Part shown: positions 15,601-61,190 of the stretch, one piece after another | Numbering within the stretch: the stretch's first letter is position 1 | How the letters are laid out: the number at the start of each line of letters is the position of its first letter | Assembly (NCBI RefSeq): GCF_014643835.1 | Contig: NZ_BMKD01000001.1 | Coordinates: 1,488,001-1,552,000 of the forward strand | Length of the DNA stretch: 64,000 nucleotides | Reading direction: 5' to 3' | DNA from: Mucilaginibacter rubeus | Lineage (GTDB): Bacteria; Bacteroidota; Bacteroidia; Sphingobacteriales; Sphingobacteriaceae | The notes under the pieces: model-generated | Database searches by the model: none | Seen by the model: only the letters and a program-made list of their open reading frames with translations | What the model was told of the DNA's origin: nothing | Made by a program: the position numbers and the translations under genes

Positions 15601-15738
15601 GATGTGCAAATTTCAAATGTGCAGATGAAACGTGTATTGTACAAGATTTCAAATGTACGAATATGCATATGTAGCTTATCTACGCTTACATATCTAATTC
15701 AAGCATTTGCACATTTGAAATCTGCATATTTGCACATC
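15601..15738. repeat. Intergenic inverted repeat built of TGCACATTTGAAATC-like words
   Basis: Outer arms 15601-15611 and 15728-15738 pair over 11 bases. Inner arms 15611-15627 and 15704-15720 pair at 16 of 17 positions. Further copies of the same word lie between and just after the arms. It sits between convergent genes, 21 bases from the stop of the minus-strand gene, and could act as a bidirectional terminator or transcript stabiliser. Confidence 0.75.
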
Positions 15739-15759
15739 CATAATCTGCACATCTGAAAT

Positions 15760-17157
15760 CTAAAATATCTTTCCCGGGTTCAAAATTCCTTTAGGATCAA
15801 ACACGTGCTTTATTCCTTTCCACAACGCAAAATGCATTTCCGAATATTTTATCGGCATAAACTCTTTTTGCACCAGGCCAATTCCGTGCTCACCCGACAA
15901 GGTGCCGCCAAGCAATACAGTTAATTCAAATATCTCCTGGATGCCGGATTTGAGCTTATTATTCCAATCTTCATCGCTCATGTTGGCTTTAATGATATTT
16001 ACATGCAGGTTTCCGTCGCCTGCATGGCCATAACAAACTGATTCAAAGCCGTATTTAGCACCCGTTTCTTTTATTCCTTTAATTAATTGTGGCAGTGCAG
16101 CACGCGGCACAACGGTATCTTCCTCTTTATAAACCGAGTTTGATTTCACCGATACTGCCATGGTACGCCTTAAACGCCAGAGTTCTTCTTTTTGAGCGGT
16201 CGAATCGGCAAACAACACATCGCGGCAGTCAAACTCTTCAAGCACTGCATTTATTTTTTCACAATCGGTAAAAATCACGTCCTGGTTGGTACCATCTACT
16301 TCAATCAATAAAAACGCTTCAATACCATCCTGCAAATCAAAAGCAATATCATCATGCTCCTTAACCCACTCCACTCCTCTTCGCTCCATAAATTCCAGTG
16401 CAGACGGGATGATCCCTGCCCTGAATATAGCCGAAACAGCTGCGCAAGCCATTTCATTGGTTGGGAATGAGGCCAGCATCAAAGCATCTAAAGTTGGAGC
16501 AGGAATAAGCTTTACCACAATTTTGGTAACAATGCCAAGAGTGCCCTCCGAACCAATCATCAATTGGGTTAAATTATAACCCGATGCATATTTAAGGGTG
16601 TTTGCACCCGTCCATATGATCTCGCCCGATGTTAAAACAACCTGTAAGTTCAACACATACTCCCTGATGGTACCATATTTAACAACGCGCGGCCCGCCTG
16701 AACCATGGGATACGTTGCCTCCAATAAAGCAACTGCCTTTACTGGCCGGGTCAACAGGGTATAACAAGCCTTTTGCAGCCACTGCGTTCATGAACTCCTC
16801 GGTTATAACACCGGGCTCGACAGTGGCCTGCAGGTTTTGTTCATCAATTTCAAGGATTTTATTAAAACGTTCCATGGCTATCAGCAAACCACCATTAACC
16901 GGCAGGGCGCCACCGCTTAAACCAGTACCTGCCCCGCGCGGCGTTACCGGGATCAGGTTTTCGTTACAGATTTTCAACAATGCAGCAACCTCTTCGGGGC
17001 TTTGCGGGCGGGCTACTACTTCCGGATAATAAACCAGGTCTTCGGTTTCGTCATGGCTGTACTTTTCAAGGCTTTCGTGGCCGGTTAAAACATTACCGGT
17101 GCCAACAATTGCGGTTATAGCCTCTAATATTTGAGCCGATATTTTATTGAATTCCAT
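15760..17157 (-). CDS. FAD-linked 2-hydroxyacid oxidase/dehydrogenase (GlcD type)
   Basis: A 465-residue flavoprotein of the GlcD/D-lactate dehydrogenase family, oxidising a 2-hydroxy acid such as glycolate or D-lactate. The FAD_binding_4 domain is at about 40-177 (PRGAGTGLSGGALPVNGG and GGNVSHGSGGPR bind FAD). The FAD-oxidase C-terminal domain is at about 215-462 (CYGHAGDGNLHVNIIKA and LSGEHGIGLVQKEF contain the conserved His residues). No glcE or glcF partner is adjacent, so a stand-alone D-lactate-type enzyme is as likely as a glycolate oxidase subunit. The start lies 2 bases after the folB stop, indicating one transcript. Confidence 0.9.
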   Translation of the reverse strand: MEFNKISAQILEAITAIVGTGNVLTGHESLEKYSHDETEDLVYYPEVVARPQSPEEVAALLKICNENLIPVTPRGAGTGLSGGALPVNGGLLIAMERFNKILEIDEQNLQATVEPGVITEEFMNAVAAKGLLYPVDPASKGSCFIGGNVSHGSGGPRVVKYGTIREYVLNLQVVLTSGEIIWTGANTLKYASGYNLTQLMIGSEGTLGIVTKIVVKLIPAPTLDALMLASFPTNEMACAAVSAIFRAGIIPSALEFMERRGVEWVKEHDDIAFDLQDGIEAFLLIEVDGTNQDVIFTDCEKINAVLEEFDCRDVLFADSTAQKEELWRLRRTMAVSVKSNSVYKEEDTVVPRAALPQLIKGIKETGAKYGFESVCYGHAGDGNLHVNIIKANMSDEDWNNKLKSGIQEIFELTVLLGGTLSGEHGIGLVQKEFMPIKYSEMHFALWKGIKHVFDPKGILNPGKIF

Positions 17158-17159
17158 GA

Positions 17160-17519
17160 TCAGGATTTCTTGTAATTTATAATAACAGCCGAATGCGCTA
17201 CCTTACCGCTTAAGGGCGGAGTAAGTTTTTTAATGGTAACCTCAATACTTTCAACAAACGGGTATTTCTTTTTTATACGATCGATAATTGCCTGACCAAC
17301 GGTTTCAATCAATTTACGTGGTTGTTTCATCTCTTCGCATGTTATAATATACACACGTTCATAATCAACAGTTTTGCTTAGATTATCTTCCAGCAAATCG
17401 CCGGGAGGCACAAAACCAACATTCACATCAACTAAAAAACGGCAACCTATTTTTTGTTCTTCGGGATAAAATCCATGGTACGCGAAAAACTCCGCGCCCT
17501 GCAAGGCTATATTGATCAT
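17160..17519 (-). CDS. folB: Dihydroneopterin aldolase
   Basis: Folate pathway enzyme converting 7,8-dihydroneopterin to 6-hydroxymethyl-dihydropterin and glycolaldehyde. From the ATG at 17519 it has 119 residues, the normal length. It opens MINIALQGAEFFAYHGFYPE with the conserved FxxHGxxxxE motif, and later has RKLIETVGQAIID and the lysine segment IKKLTPPL. The frame extends 12 codons upstream (MRFREGFFLFLA), which does not fit the family, so the inner ATG is chosen. The gene abuts the FAD oxidase gene, a neighbour with no obvious functional link to folate. Confidence 0.93.
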   Translation of the reverse strand: MINIALQGAEFFAYHGFYPEEQKIGCRFLVDVNVGFVPPGDLLEDNLSKTVDYERVYIITCEEMKQPRKLIETVGQAIIDRIKKKYPFVESIEVTIKKLTPPLSGKVAHSAVIINYKKS

Positions 17520-17705
17520 GGCCAAAAATAAAAAAAAGCCCTCTCTAAATCTCACTCTCTATAGAAAGACTTTTCAAAATATTTTTATTTCGGCTGATTT
17601 CCAGCACCTCAAAAAATATTTTGCAATCAAAAACATGCTTTAAACCGTTTAAACCTGCTTTTTACCATAAAGTGGCTTCACGCATCAAAAAACGGCCTTT
17701 TCGAC

Positions 17706-17738: not shown

Positions 17739-17756
17739 CCCACCAACTATAATATT

Positions 17757-18996: not shown

Positions 18997-19027
18997 TTGC
19001 TCATTATAATTATGAGCGTTATATTTG
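18997..19027 (+). promoter_or_regulatory. Promoter of the first TPR histidine kinase
   Basis: The -7 box TATATTTG (19020-19027) is perfect, and a TTG at 18997-18999 is 20 bases upstream. A TTG codon inside the -7 box could be taken for a start, but the ATG at 19043 is the sensible one. Confidence 0.55.
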
Positions 19028-19042
19028 TTGTGTAACCACTTA

Positions 19043-21139
19043 ATGTTGTCAACCCCTGATAGCCCAGTTAGTTTAAACAAACTGCTGGTCAACCATTTAA
19101 TTTGGCTGGCCCTCGCTTTTCTATTGATATTTAATTCCTGTGCAAATAGCATCAATGATACAGGCGATTACTCCAGGCAGTTTAAAACAATATTTGATAC
19201 GGTAAACCTGTATAATGGCGAAAGGTCTCAACCACATAAGGGCATTCGGTACCTTGACTCAGCTTACCGTACTATAAAAAACCCATTTGTAAGCGACAGG
19301 TTCCGTTTTTATGCCTTCCATTTTCTTTACAATTTAAAAGGGCTGCATGACCCTAAAAAAGCCATGCTTTATGCTGATACGATGCGGGCTGTGGCTACCG
19401 AAAGTGTTACCCCGGATCAGCATATTAAATTAACTGCCGAAGCCGATTTCGCTACCGGCGATGCCTATTCGGCCCTGGTAAGGTACGATCAGGCTTACAG
19501 GTATTTTTACAAGGGTTACTCTATCGGCAAAAACGCCATTGACGATGCCATCCTGGCCGAATACACCTACCGGATGGGGATGATCATGTTTAAACAGGGG
19601 CATTTTAGAGAAGCGGCCAATTATTTCAAGATCAGCCACAGGCAAAGCTATGCCTATCCCGATGATTTTCGCGCCTTTTACCAGCGACAAGAACTTTTGG
19701 ATAATATTGGCGAGAGCTATAAAAACAGTGGCGATATTGACAGCTCAAGCTTTTATTTAAATAAAGCGCTTGTTTATATCAATGAAAACAGTTCCAGGTT
19801 TGCCGAAAGAGCAAACCTGCTTGAAGTTGCAAGAGGTGTGGTATACGGCAACCAGGGCGATCTGGCTTTATTAACCCATAATTATAACCAGGCACACGAA
19901 TTACTGAAAAAAAGTATCGCCATTAATTTAAAACAAGGTTATGACAACCGCGATGCCGAATTAACCGAAATAAAACTTGCCCGGCTATATTTAATAACCA
20001 ATAAACCAAACGACCTTTTTGAACTGCTGAAAAGACTCCGCGCCCAGCTCGATGCTATCAAAAATGATGACGCTGAAACCAACTGGAATGGGTTAATGAG
20101 TACTTATTACCTGCAAAAAAAAGATTACCAGAATAGCTTGTTGTATTTAAAAAACTATTCATCATTAAAAGATTCGGCAACAAAAAGGACTTCATCGTTA
20201 AAACGGACGGATATTAATCAACAACAGGCCAATTTTGATAAAGAAAATCAGATAGAAGACCTTAAAAGCCACAATAAACTGCAATTGATATACATTTACC
20301 TTGCTGTGCTTTTTTCAGTGATGGCAGTGATCATTATCTTCCTTGTTTTTCGTAACCTTAAAAGGTCAAAAAGAGATATCGTAGCTATAAAAACACTAAA
20401 TGACCAAATTAAGCTGCAAAAAACGGAATTAGAAAACACACTTGAAGAAGTAAACCGGGGTAGCCGGGAAAAAGACCGAATTCTACGGGCTGTAGCACAT
20501 GACCTCCGCAATCCGCTCGGAGGAATAGCATCGTTATCGGCCTCAATGGTTGATGATGCACGTGATGAAGAACAAACAGACCTGATCAACCTCATAAAAG
20601 AAACTTCCTATAATTCCCTCGAACTCATTAATGAAATCTTAGAGGCGGCAAATACTGCCAACATGACTTTTAATAAAGAATGGGTTGAAATTAACAGCCT
20701 CATTAATAAAAGTGTTGATCTGCTGCGGTTTAAGGCGGCCGAAAAAGACCAGGATATCATGCTTAGCTTATTGGATACACCTACTGAAATATTGATAAAC
20801 AGGGAAAAAATATGGCGGGTTATCAGCAACCTTATCAGTAATGCCATAAAGTTTAGTCCCAAAGGTGCCGTTATTTATGTAATTGTAAACCAAAAACATC
20901 AAGGCGTTGAAATATGTGTTAAAGATTACGGTATAGGTATTCCTGATAAATTACAGCAACAGGTGTTTAATATGTTTACCGAAGCTAAACGGCCTGGCAC
21001 CGACGGCGAAAAATCATTTGGCCTCGGGCTTTCCATCTGCCGTCAAATAGTTGAAAAACATAGCGGCAGGATCTGGCTAAAAAGTGAATCAAATAATGGT
21101 TCAAGTTTTTACGTCTATCTTCCGGCTCAGGCGTCTTAA
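19043..21139 (+). CDS. TPR-containing sensor histidine kinase (first of a tandem pair)
   Basis: A membrane sensor kinase of 698 residues. The N-terminus has a hydrophobic export segment ending in a lipobox-like FNSC, then a periplasmic TPR array (about 50-400), one transmembrane helix (LIYIYLAVLFSVMAVIIIFL), a coiled coil and a cytoplasmic HisKA/HATPase module. The phospho-acceptor His is near residue 486 in ILRAVAHDLRNPLGGIAS. ATP-binding boxes are RVISNLISNAIKFSP (N), VKDYGIGIPD (G1) and SFGLGLSICRQIVEKHSG (G2). No receiver domain or response regulator is adjacent. It is 144 bases upstream of a close paralogue. The stimulus sensed by the TPR region is unknown. Confidence 0.92.
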   Translation: MLSTPDSPVSLNKLLVNHLIWLALAFLLIFNSCANSINDTGDYSRQFKTIFDTVNLYNGERSQPHKGIRYLDSAYRTIKNPFVSDRFRFYAFHFLYNLKGLHDPKKAMLYADTMRAVATESVTPDQHIKLTAEADFATGDAYSALVRYDQAYRYFYKGYSIGKNAIDDAILAEYTYRMGMIMFKQGHFREAANYFKISHRQSYAYPDDFRAFYQRQELLDNIGESYKNSGDIDSSSFYLNKALVYINENSSRFAERANLLEVARGVVYGNQGDLALLTHNYNQAHELLKKSIAINLKQGYDNRDAELTEIKLARLYLITNKPNDLFELLKRLRAQLDAIKNDDAETNWNGLMSTYYLQKKDYQNSLLYLKNYSSLKDSATKRTSSLKRTDINQQQANFDKENQIEDLKSHNKLQLIYIYLAVLFSVMAVIIIFLVFRNLKRSKRDIVAIKTLNDQIKLQKTELENTLEEVNRGSREKDRILRAVAHDLRNPLGGIASLSASMVDDARDEEQTDLINLIKETSYNSLELINEILEAANTANMTFNKEWVEINSLINKSVDLLRFKAAEKDQDIMLSLLDTPTEILINREKIWRVISNLISNAIKFSPKGAVIYVIVNQKHQGVEICVKDYGIGIPDKLQQQVFNMFTEAKRPGTDGEKSFGLGLSICRQIVEKHSGRIWLKSESNNGSSFYVYLPAQAS

Positions 21140-21282
21140 TATATCAGTTATTCCAAACCGATTTACTTTGAACGGATGATAAATAGATAAAAAAATTGGT
21201 AAAACGGCCTGGTCATTTTTATTTTTTTTATAGATTACCCTTGTTTTACAACTAACTCTAAACCTCGCATAATTTAATATTG

Positions 21283-23364
21283 ATGTTTATATACACAAGC
21301 TTCAGGCAAATATGGCTAACCGGTAATATACAGGGTTGTTTGCTTTTTGTTTGCTTTTTGCTGATAACCACTTCATGCGGGCAACAGTCAAAGGGCTTTC
21401 TTTCGTCTTCAGCATATAATAAAGCCGTTGACACTGCAACTATAATGTATGATAATGGGCATCATAAAGCAGCAGTAAATTATCTTGATTCAGCTTTCCG
21501 TCATTCAAGCAACCTTAGCTTCAAACAAGTTTATAATTACTATTATTTTATCTACAATTATGCTTCGCATATAAAGGCCGATCGAAAAATGGCTTTGCTG
21601 TACGCCGACAGTATGCTCAATGTTTTCGATACGCCGGAGAAGAAGCTAAAATTTACCAGTGAATATGGACAGGCTCATCTTGCCAAAGGAGACGTGTTAT
21701 TTGACGAACATCGTTACAACGAAGCTTACGGTTATTTTTACGAAGGGAAAGTAATTGCCAATAATAACCTTGATGAATGTACCATGGGTGATTATAGCTA
21801 TCGCATGGGCATGATACTATATAAGCAGGAACATTACAGCCGGGCCGCAGAATATTTTAAGGAAAGCTTTGATGAAACCAGGTCATGCGAAGGGAACTTC
21901 AATTATTTTTATCGCAGACAGGAATTATTGAATAATATAGGTTTAAGCTACAGTAAAATGTTGATGAATGATAGTGCCATGTATTTTTACAACAAGGCCC
22001 TTGATTACATTAATGATAACACAGCAAGGTTTAAAGACAGGCCCCAAATGGGGGAAGTATCCAAGGGCGTTGTATATGGCAATATGGCTGATATAAGTAT
22101 CAGGCAAAAAGATTATAACAAGGCTAAAAGCCTGCTTAGAAAAAGTATAGCTATCAATCTGCGCAAAGGAAACGATAATAATGACGCTCAACACTCCGAA
22201 TTAAAACTTGCATCTATATACGATCGGCAAAACTTAAATGACTCTTTATTAAACCTCCTCAATATTATCAGCCTCCAGTTTGATAGTGTTCAAAGTCGGG
22301 AAACCAAACAAAACTGGCACTTATTGATGTCAAATTATTTCGAGAAGCAGAATAATCATCAGCAGGCAATGACGCACTATAAGCAATACGATGAGCTTAA
22401 GGACATCATAGTAAATGAAAACAAAAAACTAAAAGAAGCCGACGTTGCAGAACAGGTTAAAAGCCTTGAAAAAGATAACGAGTTTAATAACCTTAAAAAA
22501 AACAATGAATTGCAGCATATTTATCTGAGAGTAACTGTTGTTTTTGCCCTGATGCTCATTATTATCATTTCCCTGGTATTTTTAAACTGGCAAAAATCAA
22601 AAAAGAACATTAAAACACTTGGAAGCCTTAATAACCAGATAAACCATCAAAACCACCACCTTGAAAGCGCCCTCCGTGATTTAAAACTCAATAACCAGGA
22701 AAAGGACCGGATTTTACGCACTGTTGCACATGATCTGCGCAACCCTATAGGCGGAATAGCCTCGCTTACCAGCGTAATGACAGAGGAAAATTACAGCGAC
22801 GAACAAAAAGAGCTGCTAAATATTATCCGGGAAACTTCATTTAACTCCATTGAACTAATCAATGAAATTCTGGAAGCCACTGAATCCGCTTCGGCTATAT
22901 TACATAAAGAAGCGGTTGAAGTTAATTCCTTATTGAGCAATAGTGTTGAGTTGATGCGTTTTAAGGCCGCTGAAAAGCAGCAGATTATCAATACTTTCCT
23001 GTTAAATTCACCACTCGAAATTTACATTAGCCGTGAAAAAATATGGCGGGTGATCAGCAATCTGATCAGTAATGCTATTAAATTCAGTCCGGAAGGATCG
23101 GCTATTTTGGTTATGGCCATTGATTTGGAAAACGAAATCCAGATTTCAGTAAAAGATCACGGTATAGGGATTCCCGAAAAGCTAAAAAACCAGGTGTTTA
23201 ACATGTTTACAGATGCCAAACGGCCCGGAACTGCGGGCGAAAAATCATTTGGCCTTGGCCTTTCCATCTGTAAGCAAATTATTGAAGATCATAACGGCCG
23301 TATCTGGTTTGAGAGCGATACCGAAAATGGCACGTCTTTTAATTTCACGCTCCCTAAAAACTAA
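21283..23364 (+). CDS. TPR-containing sensor histidine kinase (second of a tandem pair)
   Basis: This 693-residue kinase is clearly a paralogue of the preceding one. A hydrophobic N-terminus ends in LITTSCG (lipobox-like), then come a periplasmic TPR array, a transmembrane helix (VTVVFALMLIIIISLVFLNW), a coiled coil, HisKA with ILRTVAHDLRNPIGGIAS (His near 482), and HATPase with RVISNLISNAIKFSP, VKDHGIGIPE and SFGLGLSICKQIIEDHNG. The kinase halves are much more alike than the sensor halves, as expected of a duplication followed by sensor divergence. The ATG at 21283 is chosen over the TTG directly before it. Its stop lies 4 bases from the stop of the convergent GH1 gene, with no terminator between. 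Confidence 0.92.
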   Translation: MFIYTSFRQIWLTGNIQGCLLFVCFLLITTSCGQQSKGFLSSSAYNKAVDTATIMYDNGHHKAAVNYLDSAFRHSSNLSFKQVYNYYYFIYNYASHIKADRKMALLYADSMLNVFDTPEKKLKFTSEYGQAHLAKGDVLFDEHRYNEAYGYFYEGKVIANNNLDECTMGDYSYRMGMILYKQEHYSRAAEYFKESFDETRSCEGNFNYFYRRQELLNNIGLSYSKMLMNDSAMYFYNKALDYINDNTARFKDRPQMGEVSKGVVYGNMADISIRQKDYNKAKSLLRKSIAINLRKGNDNNDAQHSELKLASIYDRQNLNDSLLNLLNIISLQFDSVQSRETKQNWHLLMSNYFEKQNNHQQAMTHYKQYDELKDIIVNENKKLKEADVAEQVKSLEKDNEFNNLKKNNELQHIYLRVTVVFALMLIIIISLVFLNWQKSKKNIKTLGSLNNQINHQNHHLESALRDLKLNNQEKDRILRTVAHDLRNPIGGIASLTSVMTEENYSDEQKELLNIIRETSFNSIELINEILEATESASAILHKEAVEVNSLLSNSVELMRFKAAEKQQIINTFLLNSPLEIYISREKIWRVISNLISNAIKFSPEGSAILVMAIDLENEIQISVKDHGIGIPEKLKNQVFNMFTDAKRPGTAGEKSFGLGLSICKQIIEDHNGRIWFESDTENGTSFNFTLPKN

Positions 23365-27011: not shown

Positions 27012-27115
27012 GTTCATAGATGATAGTTCATGGTTCATAGTTTATGATAAATACCCTAAGCTATGAACCATGAACTACAAGCTTTTGCTATGATCTATGA
27101 ACCATCAACCATGAA
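27012..27115. repeat. Intergenic inverted repeat built of GTTCATGG/GTTCATAG words
   Basis: Arms 27024-27040 and 27061-27077 are perfectly complementary over 17 bases with a 20-base loop. The word GTTCATRG or its complement occurs about eight times with small changes across 27012-27115. It lies between the cytochrome c stop and the rnpB promoter and may terminate the operon before the RNA gene. Confidence 0.8.
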
Positions 27116-27150
27116 CTAAACTAATTTCCCTATCTTTACAACCGCAAAAC

Positions 27151-37002: not shown

Positions 37003-37057
37003 GGTTGATTAGGTGAATAGTTTTAGTTTATAGAATTAATTATTCACTTAATCAACC
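37003..37057. repeat. Inverted repeat between convergent folD and the Rieske gene
   Basis: Arms 37003-37019 and 37041-37057 pair at 16 of 17 positions around a 21-base loop. Related words extend outward on both sides. The right arm ends 2 bases before the stop codon of the minus-strand gene. Confidence 0.75.
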
Positions 37058-38973: not shown

Positions 38974-39090
38974 CTCCGGATATAAATTAAGCGTTAACGA
39001 TACAGTTATTGCATTTTACGAAAAGGGATTTAATTGGTTATCTTAAAATTAAAGTAATTATAACAATTATAAATGAAAATAAAAAAAGGC

Positions 39091-39263
39091 AAAAGGATAA
39101 AGGTGAAAGGCAAAAGGTATTTTAGCGTGTACTTTTATTTTTTTTATAATGTACTTTGATGATAAAGCCAAGACCTTTCACCTTTGGCCTTTTACCTTTC
39201 GCCTTATTAAGGTACTTCCATATTAGTGTAACCTTTTGGCTTTCACCTTTTAGCTTTCGCCTA
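39091..39263. repeat. Intergenic repeats of CCTTTCACCTTTGGCC-like words
   Basis: Arms 39091-39110 and 39174-39193 pair at 18 of 20 positions; a third degenerate copy runs from 39232 to 39263. It lies in the 321-base region between divergent genes, and the last copy ends just before the queE -7 box. Confidence 0.75.
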
Positions 39264-39271
39264 TATTTCAG

Positions 39272-39279: not shown

Positions 39280-39294
39280 CACCCTCAAATAACT

Positions 39295-45488: not shown

Positions 45489-45658
45489 CCCCCTCCGCCC
45501 CCTAAAGGGGGTACCTACTTACAATCACTCTTTAGCTGTAATGCTAAACAAGAAAAGCTTTGCCACGGCAAAGCTTTTCTTGTTTAAATACTTTTAAGTT
45601 TAATACGACAGATAAAAACCAGCCGTAAGTAAGCACCCCCTTTAGGGGGCGGGGGGGG
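45487..45658. repeat. Nested inverted repeat between manC and rlmB
   Basis: Outer arms 45487-45521 and 45625-45658 pair over 34 bases with three mismatches, and each arm itself contains a small CCCCCTAAAGGGGG-type palindrome. Inside lies a perfect hairpin (45545-45563 with 45568-45586, loop CACG) of sequence AACAAGAAAAGCTTTGC and its complement. The left arm begins at the manC stop and the right arm encodes the last residues of rlmB. It could be a two-way terminator. Confidence 0.88.
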
Positions 45659-46677: not shown

Positions 46678-46710
46678 TTTGCCTGTCGAAGCATTTTTTG
46701 TATATTTTTG
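46678..46710 (+). promoter_or_regulatory. Promoter of dnaB
   Basis: TTTG at 46678-46681 and TATTTTTG at 46703-46710 (exact TAnnTTTG) are 21 bases apart. The -7 box ends 7 bases before the ATG at 46718, again a very short leader. The rest of the 305-base gap to rlmB shows no gene or strong hairpin. Confidence 0.55.
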
Positions 46711-46717
46711 TACCCTT

Positions 46718-48283: not shown

Positions 48284-48320
48284 CCTCTCGGCTCCCCTAA
48301 AAGAAGAGTGTCAAAAGATA

Positions 48321-48366
48321 TACAAACAAGAAAAGCTTTGCAATTGCAAAGCTTTTCTTGTTTGTA
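48321..48366. repeat. Perfect 46-base palindrome downstream of dnaB
   Basis: Bases 48321-48343 are exactly complementary to 48344-48366. The core ACAAGAAAAGCTTTGC and its complement are the same as in the inner hairpin at 45545-45586. It lies 38 bases past the dnaB stop, between it and the convergent GH110-like gene, and likely terminates transcription both ways. The remaining bases to 48540 show nothing recognisable. Confidence 0.9.
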
Positions 48367-48540
48367 ATAGTGAAAACAAACCCGCATATATATCATTTCA
48401 AAAGTTAGAGGTCGAGTTTATCCACTTAGGTTATAAAGTCACAAAACTGGCACAAGCTCCATCAAAGTTTGGAGGAGTAATCTACCCGGTACTCGCTGTC
48501 AAATAAACTACCATTCTGTTGGCACCTGTTCATCTTCCAA

Positions 48541-50394: not shown

Positions 50395-50750
50395 GGTAAA
50401 TATCAGGTTACTAATATATGGCGTATATGGTATAACATTTACGCTTAACATCTATAATTTTGGCCATCCACAACCAGCATTTAAAAATTACCTTGTCTTT
50501 ACTCCATAACTTATGGTTAAAACAGCGATCCCTCTTTTATATAATATCCCATACATTTAACATAAGCGAAAATCATTCATTAAAATATAGGTTAAATATT
50601 TACCCCTGCACCAAAAGGCACTGACAGTCAAACGTGATGTCCATCGGTGATTATATTATTTTTATCATTATCATTGTTCTTCAAAACCATTAGCAACGAC
50701 GGTATCAATTTCAGATTGACACCAGCCGGAACACTGATGAAAATAACTAT
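50395..50750. other. Divergent promoter region between the GH110-like gene and a histidine kinase
   Basis: These 356 AT-rich bases must hold start signals for both genes. I found no hairpin, repeat or convincing promoter pair. Confidence 0.4.
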
Positions 50751-52442: not shown

Positions 52443-52510
52443 CTGCCGGCGTTTTACTTAAAATTGACGTATATACCCAGAATCTTAAAAACTCTTTATT
52501 CTCCAGCTAA

Positions 52511-54706: not shown

Positions 54707-54876
54707 TAAGATAAGGGTATATAAACTTATTGGTTCACGAATTTTAAAACTACATTTTTTTAGTAAAAATCAACGCCTTGTATCATATAATTTACGGCCT
54801 GGGTTCTACACAAACAATTACATATCTGACAATCAGTACATTACGCACAATTCGTATAAAGTAGAGTTAATCTTAT

Positions 54877-54920
54877 AACCAACAGCCCGCTTAACCGATT
54901 GGTTAAGCGGGCTGTTGGTT
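54877..54920. repeat. Perfect 20-base-pair hairpin downstream of the ArgE-like gene
   Basis: Bases 54877-54896 are exactly complementary to 54901-54920 around a GATT loop. No T run follows on either strand. It lies in the 353-base gap between two minus-strand genes. Confidence 0.88.
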
Positions 54921-54977
54921 ACCCGTTATCATATGTTTGAAATCCTGCGGGCTTTGAAAGGCAATAACAAAGCCGAA

Positions 54978-55021
54978 GAATCCAGACTTACGAAGTTTGA
55001 AAAGTTCTTAAGTCTGGATTC
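54978..55021. repeat. Second hairpin downstream of the ArgE-like gene
   Basis: Arms 54978-54990 and 55009-55021 are complementary over 13 bases, with three further pairs inside after one mismatch. It is 39 bases past the ArgE-like stop on the minus strand and probably acts as its terminator or 3' stabiliser. Confidence 0.8.
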
Positions 55022-55059
55022 TGCAACAGAATTATGGGTAACTTTTTATTTTTAAAATG

Positions 55060-56124
55060 TTAATTAATACTTTCCAACATCTTAATATACAACTCAATGC
55101 CTTCCCTGATCTCATCTACATAAACAAACTCATCGGCAGTATGTGAACGTGCGGAATCGCCGGGGCCAACTTTAATGGACGGGATATCCAGCAATGATTG
55201 ATCGGATGTTGTCGGTGAGCCATAGGTGATACGGCCAAGAGCTACGCCAGCCTGAACTATGGGATGTTCCTTAGGGATAGATGATGGTTTTAACCTGATA
55301 GAACGCGGTTTTACATCGCTGGCAACATGCTCACGGATAATCTCCAGTACTTCCTCATTACGATAAGCATCGGTTACACGCACGTCAACAGTATACACGC
55401 AGTTGGCAGGCACAACGTTGTGTTGTGAGCCGGCATTAATAATAGTCACCGACATTTTTATCGGTCCAAAAACTTCTGATTCTTTCGGAAATTTAAAAGT
55501 ACGGAACCATTCAATATCTGTTAACGCTTTGTAGATAGCGTTCTCCCCTTCTTCGCGGGCGGCATGGCCGGCACGCCCATGAGCGGTACAATCCAACACC
55601 ATTAAACCCCGTTCGGCAATTGCCAACTGCATCAGGGTTGGCTCACCTACTATACCAAAAGATAGTTGCCCCAAATCGGGAATAATCAGTTCTAGACCAT
55701 TTACGCCTGAAATTTCTTCTTCAGCGGTAGTCGCCAGGCAGAAATTATATTTCAGGTTTCCCTTATCATGAAAATAAAGAAATACCGCTATAAGTGAAAC
55801 AAGACAGCCTCCGGCATCATTACTACCAAGGCCATATAATTTACCATCTTCAATTTTGGCATCGTAAGGATCGCGTGTATAGCCCGAATTGGGTTTAACG
55901 GTATCATGATGTGAGTTAAGGAGGATAGTTTCTTTAGCCGGGTCGAAATGTTTATTCCAGGCCCAGATATTGTTAAGCTTACGATGAGTGGTTACCCCAT
56001 GCGACTGCAGGAATTCGTTGATCAGATCGGCGGTGCGGTCTTCCTCTTTACTAAACGATGGAATGGATATTAGTTGTTGCAGTAATGTTACCGCCAGTTG
56101 AAATAAATTGCTTGTGTCAGTCAT
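55060..56124 (-). CDS. M20 family deacetylase, probably N-acetyl/N-succinyl-ornithine or -citrulline deacetylase
   Basis: A zinc peptidase-fold amidohydrolase of 354 residues. Metal-binding segments are LLNSHHDTVKP (His, with the catalytic Asp two residues later), GLGSNDAGGCLVSL (bridging Asp), TTAEEEISGVNG (catalytic Glu and metal Glu) and GIVGEPT. The C-terminal GPGDSARSHTADEFVYVDEI has the last metal His. The sequence resembles the ArgE' deacetylases of the Bacteroidota arginine pathway, which act on acetylated or succinylated citrulline/ornithine. No other arginine genes are adjacent, so the substrate is inferred. Confidence 0.88.
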   Translation of the reverse strand: MTDTSNLFQLAVTLLQQLISIPSFSKEEDRTADLINEFLQSHGVTTHRKLNNIWAWNKHFDPAKETILLNSHHDTVKPNSGYTRDPYDAKIEDGKLYGLGSNDAGGCLVSLIAVFLYFHDKGNLKYNFCLATTAEEEISGVNGLELIIPDLGQLSFGIVGEPTLMQLAIAERGLMVLDCTAHGRAGHAAREEGENAIYKALTDIEWFRTFKFPKESEVFGPIKMSVTIINAGSQHNVVPANCVYTVDVRVTDAYRNEEVLEIIREHVASDVKPRSIRLKPSSIPKEHPIVQAGVALGRITYGSPTTSDQSLLDIPSIKVGPGDSARSHTADEFVYVDEIREGIELYIKMLESIN

Positions 56125-56285
56125 AAATTTAAGGGTTATCCCTTGTAATGAACGGGCAAAATTAACACTTTTTATTTATGTGGATGAAATACATTTCCTG
56201 AACATTAAGTCACTTTAATAGATTTACAAGTAACTTAATATTCACCTAACGCAAACATTACATATCATTTGTAATCTGCACATTT

Positions 56286-57596
56286 TCAAATCTGCTCATC
56301 TTCCATTTTTGAATGTTTGCGGGTATCATTCATGGTGATATATAAAACCAACGATAGCCCGATACAAACAGTTACATACCAATAAAACCATTGCGCATGA
56401 TGTTCATTTTTGAACCACAGGGCAATATATTCGGCAGTGCCGCCAAACAGGGATACGGCTATTGCATAAGGAAAACCTACGCCCAGGGCGCGCACATTGG
56501 CCGGAAAAAGTTCGGCCTTAACAACAGCATTGATCGAGGTATAGCCGCTTACAATGACCAGCGCGCAAAGGATCAGCGCGAATGCAACCCATACATCTTT
56601 AGTATGGCTTAGCAATGTCATGATAGGAATTGTACAAAGCGTACCCAATATGCCGAAACCAATTAATAATGGTTTCCGGCCAACTTTATCCGACAGTAAG
56701 CCAAATAAAGGTTGTATCACCATAAATACAGCTAATGTTAAGGTTGAGATGAGCGTAGCGGCGCTCTTACTGAAGCCGGACGTATTAACTAAAAACTTTT
56801 GCATATAGGTGGTAAAGGTGTAAAACGACAGTGTACCGCCAATGGTTAATCCAATTACCGTAAAAACAGCTTTAGGGTGCTTTGCTAAAGCTTTTATAGT
56901 GCCATTCAGGGCATCAGCTTTTTTACTTTCTTTATCAAACGATGCCGATTCCTGTAAGCTTCGCCTTAAATACATAGTGGTGACAGCCAGTATTGCCCCG
57001 ATTCCAAACGGAATGCGCCAACCCCAGTCATGCAATTGTTTTTCAGATAAAAACGCTCTTTGCAGCAAAACCAAAACACCCAATGCCAGTAATTGCCCCA
57101 TAATGAGCGTTACATATTGAAAGCTTGAGTAAAAACCACGGTGCTTTTTTGTAGCCATTTCACTCAGGTAAGTGGCGCTGGTTCCATACTCCCCTCCTAC
57201 ACTCAGGCCCTGGATAATGCGGGCCAACACCAGCAGTATAGGTGCAGCAACTCCGATGGTTTTGTAGCCAGGTGTTATAGCAATGATCAATGAACCAACG
57301 CTCATAAGCAATACAGAAAATGTAAGCGCAGTTTTACGGCCGCGCTTATCCGCAAAGGTCCCCATTACCCAACCGCCTATAGGGCGCATTAAAAAGCCGA
57401 TGGCAAAAATACCGGCTGCGTTTAAAAGCTGTACGGTTTGATTATCTGAAGGAAAAAAAGCATCTGAAAAATAAAGGGAAAAGGCAGTGTAAGCATACCA
57501 ATCATACCATTCAACCAAATTTCCCAGCGATCCGCCGATGATGGACTTGATGCGTCCGCCCGTGGTTTGGGGTATTGGTGATTTTATTTCATTCAT
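56286..57596 (-). CDS. MHS-family major facilitator transporter (KgtP/ProP-like)
   Basis: A 12-helix inner-membrane symporter of 436 residues. The N-terminus has GGSLGNLVEWYDWYAYTAFS, the MHS-family signature. Loop 2-3 has FADKRGRKTALTFSV, and LARIIQGLSVGGEYGTSATY is strongly conserved among alpha-ketoglutarate, proline/betaine and citrate transporters. Loop 8-9 has LLSDKVGRKPLLIGF. The likely substrate is a dicarboxylate or osmolyte with H+. ATG 57596 is chosen over a longer frame from 57701. The last residues (MEDEQI) are encoded by a repeat-like intergenic sequence. Confidence 0.92.
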   Translation of the reverse strand: MNEIKSPIPQTTGGRIKSIIGGSLGNLVEWYDWYAYTAFSLYFSDAFFPSDNQTVQLLNAAGIFAIGFLMRPIGGWVMGTFADKRGRKTALTFSVLLMSVGSLIIAITPGYKTIGVAAPILLVLARIIQGLSVGGEYGTSATYLSEMATKKHRGFYSSFQYVTLIMGQLLALGVLVLLQRAFLSEKQLHDWGWRIPFGIGAILAVTTMYLRRSLQESASFDKESKKADALNGTIKALAKHPKAVFTVIGLTIGGTLSFYTFTTYMQKFLVNTSGFSKSAATLISTLTLAVFMVIQPLFGLLSDKVGRKPLLIGFGILGTLCTIPIMTLLSHTKDVWVAFALILCALVIVSGYTSINAVVKAELFPANVRALGVGFPYAIAVSLFGGTAEYIALWFKNEHHAQWFYWYVTVCIGLSLVLYITMNDTRKHSKMEDEQI

Positions 57597-57741
57597 AGGT
57601 TTGGCAGATATTGTTGGTTTCCGTAATATTAGGAATTTTAAAATAGAGGCGCAATACCAATATAATAACCGGCATATTTGCTTTAATAAAAACTTATTCA
57701 ACCTAATCTAATACGCTCAACCATTCACCCAAACCACAACC

Positions 57742-59028
57742 ATGCTTTTCACCGAAGATTTTTTGCATTACATCTGGAAATTCAGGCTTTTTGAGCGCGA
57801 AAACCTTCAAACTATAGATGGTGAGGAACTGGAGATCTTTTCGGCAGGGCTGCACAATTCAGATTCAGGTCCCGATTTTCATAATGCGAGGATCCGTATT
57901 GGCGAGACTGTTTGGGCAGGTAATGTAGAAGTGCATCTTTCCGCGTCCGACTGGCAAAAGCATGGCCATACTAATGATGGCGCTTATGATAATGTGATAT
58001 TACATGTGGTTTATCGTAACGATATACAGTTGTTTTTACCAAACGGGCGCAAAGTTCCAACACTTGAACTGCAAAGCCGTATTAGTGAAGAGCTTTATAA
58101 CAAATATCATAAGCTGGTTTTCGGTAACCAGAGTTTTATACCCTGCGAAAACGGCATCGCTACAGTGGATGCCCTCACCATGCAAAACTGGCTTACCCGC
58201 GTGCTGGTTGAGCGGATGGAAAAACGATCGGCAAATGTGGCAGCGGCTCTGGCACTTAATAAAGGCGATTGGGAGGAAACTTTTTACCAGTTTTTAGCGG
58301 CAAACTTTGGTTTTAAAGTAAACGCCCTACCGTTTGAGCTGATGGCTAAATCGCTGCCTCAGCTTATCCTTGCCAAAAACAAAAACAGCCCGATGCAAAT
58401 TGAAGCCTTGATATTTGGGCAGGCAGGCTTTTTAGAGGGTGAATTTAAAGATGATTATCCCCTCAAACTTCAAAAGGAGTATGAATATCTGCGTAAAAAA
58501 TACAACCTTAAACCTATAGAAAGCCACCTGTGGAAGTTTATGCGGCTAAGGCCCCAAAACTTTCCAACCATCAGGCTGGCGCAATTTGCCGCGCTTATCG
58601 TACAGTCAAACCACCTGTTATCTAAAATATTAGAGATTAAAGAGGTAAAAGCACTGCGTAGTTTATTTACAGAGATCAAAGTAAACGATTACTGGGAGGA
58701 CCATTACCGGTTTGATGTGCAATCCAAGCCGTCATCAAAAAATATGGGCGATGGTTCTGTTGATATTTTGCTGCTCAATGCAGTGACCTTGTTCCTGTTT
58801 AGTTACGGCAAGCAGCATCAGCAGCAACATTATATTAGCCGTAGTCTTAAATTGTTAGAAAATTTACCGGCCGAAAAAAACAATATTATTGCTGATTTTG
58901 TTAACTTAGGAGTGAAAATTGAAACTGCGTTTGAATCACAGGCATTGCTTGAGTTAAAAAATAATTACTGCAATTATAAGAAATGCCTGCAATGCGGCGT
59001 TGGTAATAAGATACTAAAACTGGCCTGA
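57742..59028 (+). CDS. DUF2851 family protein
   Basis: A 428-residue conserved Bacteroidota protein of unknown function. Family landmarks are FLHYIWKFRLFERENLQTID at the start, GLHNSDSGPDFHNARIRIGE and VEVHLSASDWQKHGHTNDGA in the N-terminal beta-rich domain, and a C-terminal cysteine pair (CLQCGVGNKILKLA). The His/Asp-rich N-terminal domain looks enzyme-like, but no activity is established to my knowledge. It sits 4 bases upstream of a PspC gene, an association consistent with an operon. Confidence 0.92.
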   Translation: MLFTEDFLHYIWKFRLFERENLQTIDGEELEIFSAGLHNSDSGPDFHNARIRIGETVWAGNVEVHLSASDWQKHGHTNDGAYDNVILHVVYRNDIQLFLPNGRKVPTLELQSRISEELYNKYHKLVFGNQSFIPCENGIATVDALTMQNWLTRVLVERMEKRSANVAAALALNKGDWEETFYQFLAANFGFKVNALPFELMAKSLPQLILAKNKNSPMQIEALIFGQAGFLEGEFKDDYPLKLQKEYEYLRKKYNLKPIESHLWKFMRLRPQNFPTIRLAQFAALIVQSNHLLSKILEIKEVKALRSLFTEIKVNDYWEDHYRFDVQSKPSSKNMGDGSVDILLLNAVTLFLFSYGKQHQQQHYISRSLKLLENLPAEKNNIIADFVNLGVKIETAFESQALLELKNNYCNYKKCLQCGVGNKILKLA

Positions 59029-59032
59029 CACC

Positions 59033-59254
59033 ATGCTACAGCGGATACTTACTTTTTTTGAACGGTACTCTTTTGGTGTATGCACCTACCTTGGCGAACG
59101 CTTTAATATCTCGATCTCCAAGATCAGGCTTTTCTTTATCTACTCCTCATTCCTGGCGGTAGGCTTCCCGCTTATATTTTATTTTTTTGCGGGTGTTGTA
59201 TTGGATATCCGGAACTTCATTAAACGCAAGCATACCGGGGTTACTGATCTTTAA
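59033..59254 (+). CDS. PspC-domain small membrane protein
   Basis: A 73-residue inner-membrane protein. The single PspC domain includes FGVCTYLGERFNISISKIRL and a membrane helix (FLAVGFPLIFYFFAGVVLDI). PspC-type proteins sense or respond to envelope stress in other bacteria. It starts 4 bases after the DUF2851 stop and is likely co-expressed. Confidence 0.88.
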   Translation: MLQRILTFFERYSFGVCTYLGERFNISISKIRLFFIYSSFLAVGFPLIFYFFAGVVLDIRNFIKRKHTGVTDL

Positions 59255-59360
59255 CCGCTGATCATTTCTGATTACGTTGATTTCGCTTATTTTTATTGGG
59301 AGATTTCACCGATTATTCCCTGCTTTCACCGATTTTGATTAGTGAAAGCACATCTTCTCA

Positions 59361-59720
59361 TTAAACCAATTTGCCAGTTTTTACAGCATCTTGTAAGTTG
59401 CGCACCTTAAATTTGGGAGTATAGCAATATTGGGCCAGTTGTTTAACCCATGTAGTATTGTAGCCAAACATCAGTTTAATAACTTTTACCCGGGTTGAGC
59501 CTTTGGGATAGCCATATTTATACCAACTGAATTTAGATGGATCTATATTGAACTGTTCGGCAAAATCAGCAAGAAAAAGGTCTATCTCAATGTCAAAAAT
59601 ATCCAGATCAAGATCGATACTGGTATCGAGGTTCAGGCTACGCGGATCAACCTTATGGATCTTATACCTGTTGCAATAATCAACTATAAATTCTTTTAAG
59701 GGTGGCAGTATCTCTTCCAT
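59361..59720 (-). CDS. DUF1493 family acyl-carrier-like small protein
   Basis: A 119-residue acidic protein of the DUF1493 family (SLNLDTSIDLDLDIFDIEID, then FLADFAEQFNIDPSKFSWYK), whose N-terminal part resembles an acyl carrier protein helix bundle. Where ACP has the DSL serine, this protein has DIF, so the phosphopantetheine site is absent. Function unknown. It is convergent with the PspC gene, and no partner is evident. Confidence 0.82.
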   Translation of the reverse strand: MEEILPPLKEFIVDYCNRYKIHKVDPRSLNLDTSIDLDLDIFDIEIDLFLADFAEQFNIDPSKFSWYKYGYPKGSTRVKVIKLMFGYNTTWVKQLAQYCYTPKFKVRNLQDAVKTGKLV

Positions 59721-59925
59721 TTAAACGAATGTTAATTTGACCATTTAAGTTATGAGACGTAGCTTTTTAAATAAGGTTGCATACAAATTTACTTTATTTT
59801 TAAATCGTTTAAATTGAACCTGATAGTTAATAAATGTTAAATATTTATTGCTGTACAATGGAGCTTTATGCTACTAAAATCAACCTGATGTATTATTATT
59901 GCACCAGGTAAACCAGATACTTCAA

Positions 59926-60615
59926 ATGAACCTAAAAGTAATTGCCTTTGATGCCGACGACACCCTTTGGGTAAATGAACCTTACTTTCAAGCCACCGAA
60001 GAAAGGTTTTGCAGTCTGCTCGAAAATTTTTCGCCACAACACACCATTTCCAAAGAGCTTTTTAAAGTTGAGGTTGATAACCTCCCACTTTATGGCTACG
60101 GGATAAAAGGCTATATCCTCAGCATGATAGAGGCTGCGTTAAGCATTTCTGAAAAAAATATCAGTGTTGATGTAGTGGAAACCATATTACAATATGGTAA
60201 GGACATGCTCAACCAACCGATAGAGTTACTGAACGAGGTAGAACATGTTTTATCCTCATTAAAAGATCATTACAGGCTGGTGGTAGCCACCAAAGGCGAT
60301 CTGCTTGACCAGGAGCGGAAGCTCAAAAAATCAGGGCTGGCACATTACTTTCACCATATCGAAATTATGAGTGATAAAAAGGAGGATGATTATATCAAGC
60401 TGATCAAACACCTTGACATCAATCCCGATGAGTTTATGATGATCGGCAATTCCTTAAAATCAGATGTAATGCCCGTGATCAACATTGGCGGGCATGCTGT
60501 TCACGTACCCTATCATACAACCTGGGCGCACGAACACGTAGAAACCGTTTTAACACACGAAAACTTCAAACATGTGCATAAGATCAGTGAAGTATTGGAA
60601 TTTGTGAAGTTCTAA
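59926..60615 (+). CDS. HAD-superfamily hydrolase
   Basis: A 229-residue phosphatase-like protein. Motif I is VIAFDADDTLW (nucleophile and acid/base Asp), motif II is VVATKGD, motif III is the Lys in KSGLAHYFHHI, and motif IV is DEFMMIGNSLKSDVMPVINI. The helical cap domain falls between motifs I and II. Substrate unknown. ATG 59926 is chosen over an upstream TTG at 59899. The stop codon lies inside the left arm of an inverted repeat. Confidence 0.9.
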   Translation: MNLKVIAFDADDTLWVNEPYFQATEERFCSLLENFSPQHTISKELFKVEVDNLPLYGYGIKGYILSMIEAALSISEKNISVDVVETILQYGKDMLNQPIELLNEVEHVLSSLKDHYRLVVATKGDLLDQERKLKKSGLAHYFHHIEIMSDKKEDDYIKLIKHLDINPDEFMMIGNSLKSDVMPVINIGGHAVHVPYHTTWAHEHVETVLTHENFKHVHKISEVLEFVKF

Positions 60616-60669
60616 GTCTTGAGTCCTAAGTCGATTATACCAATTTAACTTTTGACTCAAGACTTAGAA
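60610..60669. repeat. Inverted repeat of AAGTCTTGAGTCCTAAGTC-like words overlapping a stop codon
   Basis: Arms 60610-60625 and 60654-60669 are perfectly complementary over 16 bases; further word copies continue to 60679. The left arm contains the HAD stop codon (60613-60615), and the copies reach the stop of the convergent GNAT gene (60678). Confidence 0.85.
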
Positions 60670-60677
60670 CTTAGGAC

Positions 60678-61190
60678 TTAAACGCTCTTCTCCATTACAA
60701 TTAGCTCAATATGCTGTTTGGCGTCACCAAAACGGCCATGCGCATGAAAAGGCTGGATTTCGCCGGTTGGTTTGTAGCCGCGGCGCTCATACCAGCTTAT
60801 CAGTTCGGAACGGATGCTGATTACTGTCATAGCTAAAGTATTGCAGTTATGCTTACGCGCGTAAACTTCTGCTTCTTCTATCAGTGCGCGGCCCACACCT
60901 TTATTCTGCAATAGTGGCGACACACTAAACATGCCAACATACAACTTTGGAGTTCTGACTTCAAGATAAACAGTACCCGTAATATTGCCATCCTCATCAG
61001 TATGCTTTAAAATGATAATATTTTCATTATTCATATACCCTGCAAGAGTTTGTTCATCAATGCGGGCACCACCAATTAAGTCGGCCTCAGTTGTCCAACC
61101 CCGTTTGGAGCTTTCACCACGGTAAGCGCTGTTTACTAAAACATTAAGTTCGGGTACGTCGGTAAGTGTAGCTTGGGTTATTACAGGCAT
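60678..61190 (-). CDS. GNAT family N-acetyltransferase
   Basis: A 170-residue acetyl-CoA-dependent acyltransferase. Motif A is KLYVGMFSVSPLLQNKGVGR, with the Q-x-x-G-x-G/A pyrophosphate loop (QNKGVGRALI near residue 105). Motif B is RSELISWYERRGYKPTGEIQ. The closing HIELIVMEK strand is also standard. The substrate cannot be read. Confidence 0.9.
   Translation of the reverse strand: MPVITQATLTDVPELNVLVNSAYRGESSKRGWTTEADLIGGARIDEQTLAGYMNNENIIILKHTDEDGNITGTVYLEVRTPKLYVGMFSVSPLLQNKGVGRALIEEAEVYARKHNCNTLAMTVISIRSELISWYERRGYKPTGEIQPFHAHGRFGDAKQHIELIVMEKSV

Follow-up and report, generated by a model that had tools for sequence, protein, structure and literature searches.

The word-built inverted repeats found in the window (the whole 64-kb stretch analysed here, from the genus Mucilaginibacter) are, on balance, best read as copies of several dispersed, non-coding, REPIN-like hairpin families, in which arms of degenerate words have spread and which have a possible role at transcription ends. 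An inverted repeat is present at each of the coordinates listed by the first-pass annotation, which had described them all as word repeats. That description stands for 15601, 27012, 37003, 39091 and 60610, whereas 45545, 48321 and 54978 proved to be compact hairpins and 45489/45658 a C/G-rich pair. An ungapped inverted-repeat scan (arm score of at least 15, arms at most 160 nt apart) recovered 8 inverted repeats in the window, 8/8 of them intergenic and 0 in genes, and 0 matches remained when each part was dinucleotide-shuffled once; the repeat at 37003, with an arm score of 14, is recovered only with a looser cut-off. An Rfam search of the window returned RNase P RNA only.

Site A (15590..15759; this and all further features are unstranded) is a TGCACATTTGAAATC-type word inverted repeat with arms at 15590-15627/15704-15741 and 15644-15662/15705-15723, in the convergent gap between a thioesterase-like gene (15148-15594, + strand) and a FAD-linked oxidase gene (15760-17157, - strand; Pfam). 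The GTTCATR/GTTGATR heptad inverted repeat of site B (27013..27118; period 7; arms 27024-27062/27080-27118 and 27024-27049/27052-27077) lies between a cytochrome gene (26590-27006, + strand) and rnpB. Two further sites occupy convergent gaps: site C (37003..37057), a GTTGATTAGGTGAATG inverted repeat between a folD-like gene (36107-36988, + strand) and a Rieske protein gene (37060-37398, - strand; Pfam), and site G (60607..60672), a AAGTCTTGAGTCCT heptad inverted repeat with arms at 60607-60631/60648-60672 between HAD hydrolase (59899-60615, + strand) and GNAT (60678-61190, - strand; Pfam) genes. The left arm of site G contains the TAA stop of the HAD hydrolase gene, in agreement with the earlier remark that some repeats include stop codons. 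Site D (39081..39268), with AAAGGNN heptad inverted repeats (arms 39081-39118/39231-39268 and 39085-39110/39174-39199), adjoins the start of a radical-SAM gene (39277-39918, + strand). The placement at 3' ends or between convergent genes noted previously is borne out for 15601, 37003 and 60610, which are convergent, and for 27012, which follows the cytochrome gene; 39091 lies in a divergent gap and so has no 3' end beside it.

The remaining features are not word elements. The outer pair of site E (45489..45658) has CCCCCTAAAGGGGG-type arms with a C-rich 5' arm, and within it lies a compact two-sided terminator-like hairpin (45545..45586), which has a AACAAGAAAAGCTTTGC arm in common with the compact terminator-like hairpin at 48321..48366, 3' of a dnaB-like gene (46670-48283). 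A terminator scan of 44001-64000 gave 26 matches, as against 20.1 +/- 4.3 in shuffles, with these two hairpins as its top terminator-like matches. It gave no match for a perfectly paired compact hairpin separating two minus-strand genes in tandem (54876..54921) or for a compact hairpin with a 2-nt loop (54977..55022) near the 3' end of an M20 peptidase gene (55060-56124, - strand).

The word elements consist of degenerate 7- or 8-mers, with 19 runs of 7-nt periodicity (2.4 in shuffled sequence) and 9 runs of 8-nt periodicity (2.8 shuffled). In the two families that were measured, arms of at least three words hold exactly four words in 61/69 and 56/87 cases. Neighbouring arms in these families occur in the +- order 22 and 26 times (22/23 and 26/33), as against 1 and 7 in other orders, with -+ never seen. 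The 5' arm is the G-rich one in 74 wide elements versus 14 (p=5e-11), and on either strand the G-rich word, read 5' to 3', points at the loop; compact hairpins are without such polarity (36 versus 37).

Within one element, the two arms are offset from each other by one word, as checked in two families. In register, the purine letters of the two arms agree at 24% and 30% of positions versus about 50% with shuffled partners, the ATTTGARR unit adjoining the loop being omitted (P=0.0025 and 0.0027 once identical code pairs are collapsed). When the arms are shifted by one word, agreement is 83%/73% and 65%/56%, one of the two shifts not being significant for GTTSATR. This phase shift describes the data better than a rule of opposite purines between arms, which it replaced. 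The AAGTC and AAAGG arms appear less regular. Adjacent ATTTGARR units are identical in 1 and 0 cases versus 16.2 and 17.3 expected, figures that may be inflated by copies of a single founder; the arm test was repeated twice with shuffled partners, in one case also with identical code pairs collapsed. Among GTTSATR neighbours in the genus 47/237 are identical.

The loops of one family that bloomed in G021 seem unrelated: their mean best score is 7.25 versus 6.82 for shuffled loops, a comparison of 11 of 12 loops (one shorter than 15 nt being omitted) made without a formal test. Copying of the whole element, loop included, was accordingly set aside, as these loops lack mutual resemblance. A search for inner terminators found a compact hairpin inside only 4/70 wide loops of at least 20 nt.

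The words recur across the genus in species-specific "dialects", individual words having bloomed in individual genomes. For instance, a triple ATTTGARR pattern has 84 matches in G021 and 63 in G232, the 59 other genomes having no more than 5 apiece and its backwards control having 0. Likewise, GTTCATRGTTSATRGTTCATRG has 191 matches in G016, 79 in G062 and 78 in G225 and none in 22/61 genomes, while its backwards control has at most 1 match per genome except for 7 in G231. GTTGATTRRGTGARTGGTTGATT, with one mismatch allowed, is present in 43/61 genomes. AAGTCYTRAGTCYTRAGTC is present in 19/49 genomes of the genus and 0/31 others, and in a phylum sample in 2/2 genus genomes and 0/146 others. The GTTCATR heptad is found outside the genus too (66 sites, 17/66 in +- order); hence, this word is not private to Mucilaginibacter. 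The first-pass annotation had the word differing at nearly every site, which is true of the window while the words recur beyond it. It had also suggested that words might be copied locally; the genus-wide counts rule out purely local invention and point to dispersed words blooming in particular species, yet a 7-nt unit change at 60610 does indicate some local change. In the literature searches that were run, on six words as letters and on the element class, we found no published description, and only the papers cited here proved relevant.

To examine placement relative to genes, we surveyed 925 gaps of 40-1000 nt from six genomes for inverted repeats of any class at a cut-off of 13, with genes called by a simple longest-ORF method. 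Such repeats occur in 88/178 convergent, 102/535 tandem and 19/212 divergent gaps; 11/94 wide elements lie in divergent gaps. In tandem gaps the elements lie a median of 10 nt past the upstream stop, with 34/49 closer to the 3' end. Elements are commonest in convergent gaps and close to stop codons. The earlier annotation is supported in treating the repeats as a second class apart from compact terminators, with one architecture, different words and a concentration at 3' ends and in convergent gaps. Contrary to the outcome that it had named as refuting, the words extend beyond single sites and a 3' excess is present.

The alternative that survives best, with an appreciable though minor chance of being right, is that these are primarily functional hairpins that end transcription in both directions or protect RNA 3' ends, in which selection acts on pairing only and words turn over freely. 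The enrichment at 3' ends and in convergent gaps favors this, as do the strong folds predicted for either strand, with a median z of about -6 for 57 of the 94 wide elements, although the set was chosen for pairing. Moreover, extra compact hairpins are fewer in convergent gaps with a word element (2/32) than in those without (39/124), and length-matched pieces put the expected number for the former at 6.1 (P=0.04); the with-versus-without comparison is not significant in tandem gaps (p=0.12). However, a T-run (at least 5 T in 9) follows the 3' arm in 16% of 117 wide-element tails versus 17% of random intergenic positions, which is no excess. In compact-hairpin tails the figure is 24% of 123, an underestimate since the stems take in the T-run. 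The compact G+C-rich stem followed by a T-run that marks intrinsic terminators is lacking in the wide word elements, while the hairpins at 45545 and 48321 score as terminators. RNA-level selection visible as a G.U bias was likewise rejected, as G.T versus A.C on the transcribed strand stands at 21 versus 16. In addition, pairing alone leaves the shared words, the dialect blooms and the four-word arms unexplained. A terminator role of the word elements is possible, but they show neither a T-run excess nor a G.U bias on the transcribed strand. An unlikely variant holds that they are two-sided Rho-dependent terminators. Rho prefers to load on C-rich, G-poor RNA, and a transcript entering from either side would meet the G-rich arm and then the C-rich, G-poor arm as a putative loading site. 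The shared polarity on both strands noted above fits this idea; against it, the C-rich arm could be hidden by pairing with the G-rich arm, and composition imposes no sharing of words between the two arms.

At orthologous gene ends, the word is retained in some species and exchanged for a different word or a REP in others. At site A, among 30 relatives inspected by eye after the FAD-oxidase gene, 6 have TGCACAT-type words, 2 ATTTGARR words and 3 a CGTC REP, the rest having something else or nothing; a scan gave an inverted repeat in 13/30. Similarly, the folD 3' end of site C shows several word families and REPs in 24 relatives, 23 of them usable (by eye). The words of site B are greatly altered yet of the same kind in G001, G014 and G018, with the change adjoining conserved flanks; G021 has the right arm only and G023 lacks the site. 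Site D is nearly identical in G001 and smaller in G014 and G018, and none was seen in G021 or G023. The 174-nt gap of site E is identical in G001, and its place in G014, G018 and G023 is occupied by GTTGATT/GTGAGTG words. At some gene ends, gap 19048 for one, a single word is kept across species, which counts against dispersal since ordinary descent would give such retention. Concerted evolution of the arms, tried at 7 orthologous sites, had a mixed outcome that was clear at one gap only: arms match better within their own element 104 times and worse 62 times, and at 3/7 sites the mean for self comparisons fails to exceed that for cross comparisons. Neither a pair of filled and empty sites nor a target duplication was seen among the relatives compared, all of which are distant.

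That replication slippage and fold-back template switching left the repeats as local scars, with no dispersal, is quite unlikely. The gap of site G has one extra 7-nt unit in G001 relative to the window, and this, like the alteration of site B next to conserved flanks, is what slippage might leave behind. Such scars do not account for one word blooming at many sites of a particular genome; neighboring ATTTGARR units hardly ever match exactly, whereas fresh slippage would make them alike (GTTSATR having 47/237 identical as above), and the arms within a site are not in-register copies of one another.

As regards a spreading enzyme, there are 37 Y1_Tnp (PF01797) matches in six genomes, and 30/37 loci were inspected together with 1.5 kb of flank on either side, contig ends permitting. 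Two ATTTGARR units beside a Y1_Tnp gene were found at 0/4 loci of G021 and 0/6 of G232, and two GTTSATR units at 0/5 of G016. A word element, GTTGATT, is present at only 1/30 loci, in G014; the TGCACAT pattern, a loose one of 7 bases with a single match at 13/30 loci, was left out of this count. Many Y1_Tnp loci carry other palindromes near the gene. It is therefore very unlikely that these are ordinary REPINs moved by RAYT (Y1) transposases, even though they share with those described in PMC3116915 the inverted doublets, variable spacers, intergenic location and lineage specificity: the bloomed words are absent beside the Y1_Tnp genes inspected in the very genomes that are rich in them. The faintest candidate is a telomerase-like, repeat-adding reverse transcriptase whose products are captured at breaks. 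Such a source would account for the polarity and for loops that are unrelated, fits the element geometry and has a precedent in DRT10 (PMC12632851), but RVT_1 (PF00078) has 0 matches in the word-rich G021 and G014. In the other four genomes, which have 2 matches each, the 8 RVT_1 loci (two in one gene) are devoid of all five word patterns examined and of tight 7-9-nt arrays; moreover, adjacent ATTTGARR units differ. No mobilizing gene was found in the PF01797 and PF00078 families that were searched.

Returning to the dispersed hairpin families, an element comprises two inverted arms of degenerate 7- or 8-nt words flanking a loop, of which the arms and not the loop are probably copied. Copying could proceed via a trans-acting system, one other than RAYT and independent of reverse transcriptase; alternatively, arrays might undergo ectopic conversion, which would spread words as well. 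Copies would persist where genes stay unbroken, and the foldable arms, once in place, may act as transcription-end hairpins for both neighbors, in which case words would be exchangeable without loss; arms out of phase would still pair yet avoid a perfect palindrome. More tentatively, it is conceivable that they form a self-spreading class defined by a word code, with four words per arm, a one-word phase shift, free loops, species-specific blooms and a word-recognizing system that is neither RAYT nor reverse transcriptase. If true, part of the sequence that follows genes in these bacteria would be a turnover system, with a given gene end carrying one word hairpin as its cap in one species and another elsewhere. 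This would provide a natural experiment on the requirements of a bacterial gene end. The elements would also be a dispersed repeat of a new kind, whose arm rule can be measured and whose machinery might be traced via genes that track the favored words of each species.

Among known systems, DRT10 synthesizes tandem-repeat DNA from short templates that vary and in one system measure 9 nt (PMC12632851). The word elements resemble its products in their short variable units and differ in being chromosomal and in occurring in two word-rich genomes (G021 and G014) without a reverse transcriptase of the RVT_1 family. Like intrinsic bidirectional terminators, they place a hairpin between convergent genes, but their loops are wide, their arms A+T-rich and their words shared, with no T-run excess. 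The cyanobacterial STRR sequences are heptamer direct repeats. TAACTGA heptamers occur in Beggiatoaceae, cyanobacteria and five Bacteroidetes, and in the main genome of that study are mainly direct and upstream of start codons (PMC4679880). The word elements share with them a 7-nt unit, intergenic location, patchiness among species and change by 7-nt steps; however, instead of direct tandem units upstream of start codons they have degenerate, inverted ones mostly near 3' ends. A further close comparison is with the REPINs of the REP/REPIN-RAYT literature (PMC3116915; PMC3733652; PMC2817692). In common with these, the word elements have two inverted, spaced copies able to fold, a variable spacer and lineage-specific amplification in intergenic regions. 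They differ in lacking a cognate flanking Y1 transposase gene, or any RAYT link at the loci examined in six genomes, and the GTAG/CGTC end tag, the arms of the two families read closely starting with AATTTGA or GTTCAT. The same genomes do contain a CGTCATTGCGAGG element, distinct from these, that bears the CGTC letters. Finally, in place of the single palindromic core of a REPIN, the arms of the word elements are strings of degenerate 7-8-nt words, and many such word families coexist within Mucilaginibacter.

The inverted repeats reported in the first-pass annotation are present in the window at every coordinate listed there. A strict scan (arm score of at least 15, arms at most 160 nt apart) recovered eight, all intergenic, with none inside genes and none in one shuffle per part; in a 400 kb sample of the relative G014 it found 34 in intergenic DNA (56 kb) versus 4 in genes (344 kb), and none after shuffling. 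The single architecture proposed for all the sites holds for those at 15601 (15590..15759), 27012 (27013..27118), 37003 (37003..37057, after folD), 39091 (39081..39268) and 60610 (60607..60672), which are built of words, i.e. 7- or 8-nt units that form the arms around a loop. It does not extend to 45545, 48321 and 54977, which are compact hairpins, or to the inverted pair 45489/45658, which is of a C/G-rich palindrome type and not word-built. Both 45545-45586 and 48321-48366 are terminator-like, being the best hits of a terminator scan over 44001-64000, and have a common AACAAGAAAAGCTTTGC arm that is perhaps a dispersed terminator sequence; the compact hairpins at 54876 and 54977 had no match in that scan. 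The word site at 27013..27118 lies directly upstream of a class A RNase P RNA (27141-27528, + strand), the sole Rfam match of the window. The adjacent genes 19025-21139 and 21280-23364 are paralogue-like, and window parts cross-match at ~69% in relatives. The stretches compared from G001 (the nearest genome available), G014, G018, G021 and G023 lose synteny with the window just past a dnaB-like gene, at ~48283. G001 belongs to one genus with G225 and G232, of which 2,000-base pieces are identical to sequences of Mucilaginibacter phenanthrenivorans and M. dorajii; the genus is thus Mucilaginibacter.

The words are degenerate (e.g. GTTCATA/GTTGATG, AAGTCTT/GAGTCCT, AAAGGTG/AAAGGCA and ATTTGAGA/ATTTGAAG). 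Between the genes of the G014 sample, three-unit near-repeats numbered 19 versus 2.4 shuffled at lag 7 and 9 versus 2.8 at lag 8, and their density at lag 7 was 42.9 per 100 kb there versus 2.6 in genes.

Two families were analysed closely for the anatomy of the arms. Twenty ATTTGARR (R, purine) stretches read from G021 give the arm consensus AATTTGARR ATTTGARR ATTTGARR ATTTGAAAATG, with the loop-proximal octad mostly ending in AA, while the loops of 11 elements compared pairwise have a mean best score of 7.25 versus 6.82 shuffled. When 20 G232 stretches are added, duplicates removed and arms of at least three units taken, 61/69 arms consist of exactly four octads, and neighbouring arms are ordered +- in 22 cases, -- in one and -+ in none. 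For GTTSATR (named loci and samples), exactly four heptads occur in 56/87 arms, and the neighbour orders are +- 26, ++ 5, -- 2 and -+ 0. Compared arm against arm in register, the variable purines are the same in just 28/117 cases for ATTTGARR (omitting the nearly fixed loop-adjacent unit) and 26/87 for GTTSATR, against about half for shuffled partners; with identical code pairs collapsed (17 and 21 elements), this disagreement has P=0.0025 and P=0.0027, respectively. One word off register, agreement reaches 83% (shift -1) and 73% (shift +1) for ATTTGARR, and 65% (shift -1) and 56% (shift +1; not significant) for GTTSATR. Hence, in these two families, to which the formal test applies, the arms are one word out of phase.

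We surveyed six genomes (the window, G014, G001, G018, G021 and G023), which gave 925 gaps 40-1000 nt long; the cut-off was 13, and each orthologous site was counted in its own right. Inverted repeats of any class occur in 88/178 convergent, 50/275 and 52/260 tandem, and 19/212 divergent gaps. Of the 224 repeats, a hand-made pattern list put 94 in a wide class (loop >9 nt), 92 in a compact one and 38 in a REP-like one. The wide elements number 34 in convergent, 49 in tandem and 11 in divergent gaps; in tandem gaps their median distance to the upstream stop is 10 nt and to the following start 46 nt, the 3' end being nearer in 34/49 (p=0.015). This bears out the earlier placement of the sites mostly at gene 3' ends, but the word site at 39091 sits in a divergent gap. 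The wide elements also have a polarity: G exceeds C in the 5' arm of 74 and falls below it in 14 (p=5e-11), the corresponding counts being 36 and 37 for compact hairpins and 18 and 14 for REP-like repeats. Since an inverted repeat reads alike from either strand, the polarity belongs to the element and not to the adjacent gene. All five word sites of the window follow the G-rich 5' arm; the 45489 pair is opposite.

Whole genomes were searched with patterns of about three words, each with a backwards control. Three running ATTTGARR words occur 84 times in G021, 63 in G232 and at most five times in each of 59 others (present in 9/61 genomes; control 0). GTTCATRGTTSATRGTTCATRG is found in 39/61 genomes (191 in G016, 79 in G062, 78 in G225, 69 in G006) and is absent from 22, with a control of 0 or 1 per genome save 7 in G231; GTTGATTRRGTGARTGGTTGATT, with one mismatch allowed, is found in 43/61 (control 0). 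The AAGTC pattern AAGTCYTRAGTCYTRAGTC occurs in 19/49 genus genomes versus 0/31 others, and in a phylum sample in 2/2 genus versus 0/146 other genomes. Its control gave 0 in the genus and 42 in G081, of another Bacteroidota family, where it matched a different heptad array, CTGAATT (L314-L343), which came to light only for that reason. Confinement of the words to single sites, which the first-pass annotation had named as counting against its reading, is thus contradicted by three-word patterns recurring in many genus genomes: the distribution of the words is wider than single sites, though uneven. Not every word is private to Mucilaginibacter: among the matches listed, GTTCATR has at least 119 stretches, 40 of them from this genus and the others mainly from Prevotella, Saprospiraceae, other Bacteroidota and cyanobacteria. 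Among these matches, Mucilaginibacter sites are +- in 28/43, with identical neighbouring units in 47/237, and four other groups pooled give 17/66 and 207/420. The cyanobacterial arrays listed (Symploca, Coleofasciculus; L110, L115, L138, L140, L169, L181, L205) comprise eight sites: + only 4, - only 1, +- 2 and -+- 1.

The same gene end can carry different words in different genomes. The gap 15595-15760 has TGCACAT-type words in the window and G001, a CGTCATTGCGAGG REP in G014 and G018, and ATTTGARR words in G021; the gap 45489-45662 has the C/G pair and hairpin in the window and G001, and GTTGATT/GTGAGTG words in G014, G018 and G023. After folD, 23 usable relatives classed by eye include four GTTGATT-type, three GGTTGTAAAGG-type and one GGTTATTAGG-type, one pair of the AGTCGATGGTC type flanking an inner palindrome and two CGTC REPs, the remainder having other palindromes, terminators or nothing. 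After the FAD oxidase gene, 30 relatives include six TGCACAT-type, two ATTTGARR and three CGTC REP, the remainder other or nothing; the scan gave an inverted repeat in 13/30. The HAD gene is a weaker case of word switching: AAGTC-type words follow it in G001, G018 and G048, and G014 and G044 have related CGGACTT words on one side, with an inverted repeat in 4/30 relatives and the next gene immediately adjoining in many. Some gaps retain one word, as at G001 gap 19048 (AAATCCGAAATCG-type on both sides in G001, G014, G018 and G023). At 60607..60672, G001 has one 7-nt unit absent from the window.

The reading that remains best is that the word sites are a dispersed REPIN-like, word-built hairpin class, which would have been spread by some system or by inter-array conversion; the hairpins would be tolerated at gene ends and may serve a purpose there. 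A gene-end function is weakly favoured by the scarcity of extra compact hairpins in convergent gaps, 2/32 with a word element versus 39/124 without, and 2 versus the 6.1 that length-matched pieces would predict (P=0.04); tandem gaps show no significant difference. Spread by RAYT (Y1 transposase) transposition was not supported by examination of 30 of the 37 Y1_Tnp matches in six genomes. Many Y1 loci of the genus (L364-L393) have their own palindrome pair nearby, differing from locus to locus, and hence several REP-like systems may coexist. A reverse transcriptase source of the words, of the kind of the repeat-making DRT10 (PMC12632851), was likewise not supported: RVT_1 has no match in the word-rich G021 and G014, and the eight RVT_1 loci of the four other genomes hold none of five word patterns. 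Neither plain intrinsic termination (the T-run excess is absent) nor RNA-strand selection (21 G.T to 16 A.C) is supported.

Searches of the open literature, outside which most subscription papers lie, by six words and by the class turned up no account of inverted repeats built of words in Bacteroidota. The closest published counterparts are REPINs (PMC3116915), the GTAG/CGTC-tagged REPs (PMC3733652) and the TAACTGA heptamer direct repeats (PMC4679880).
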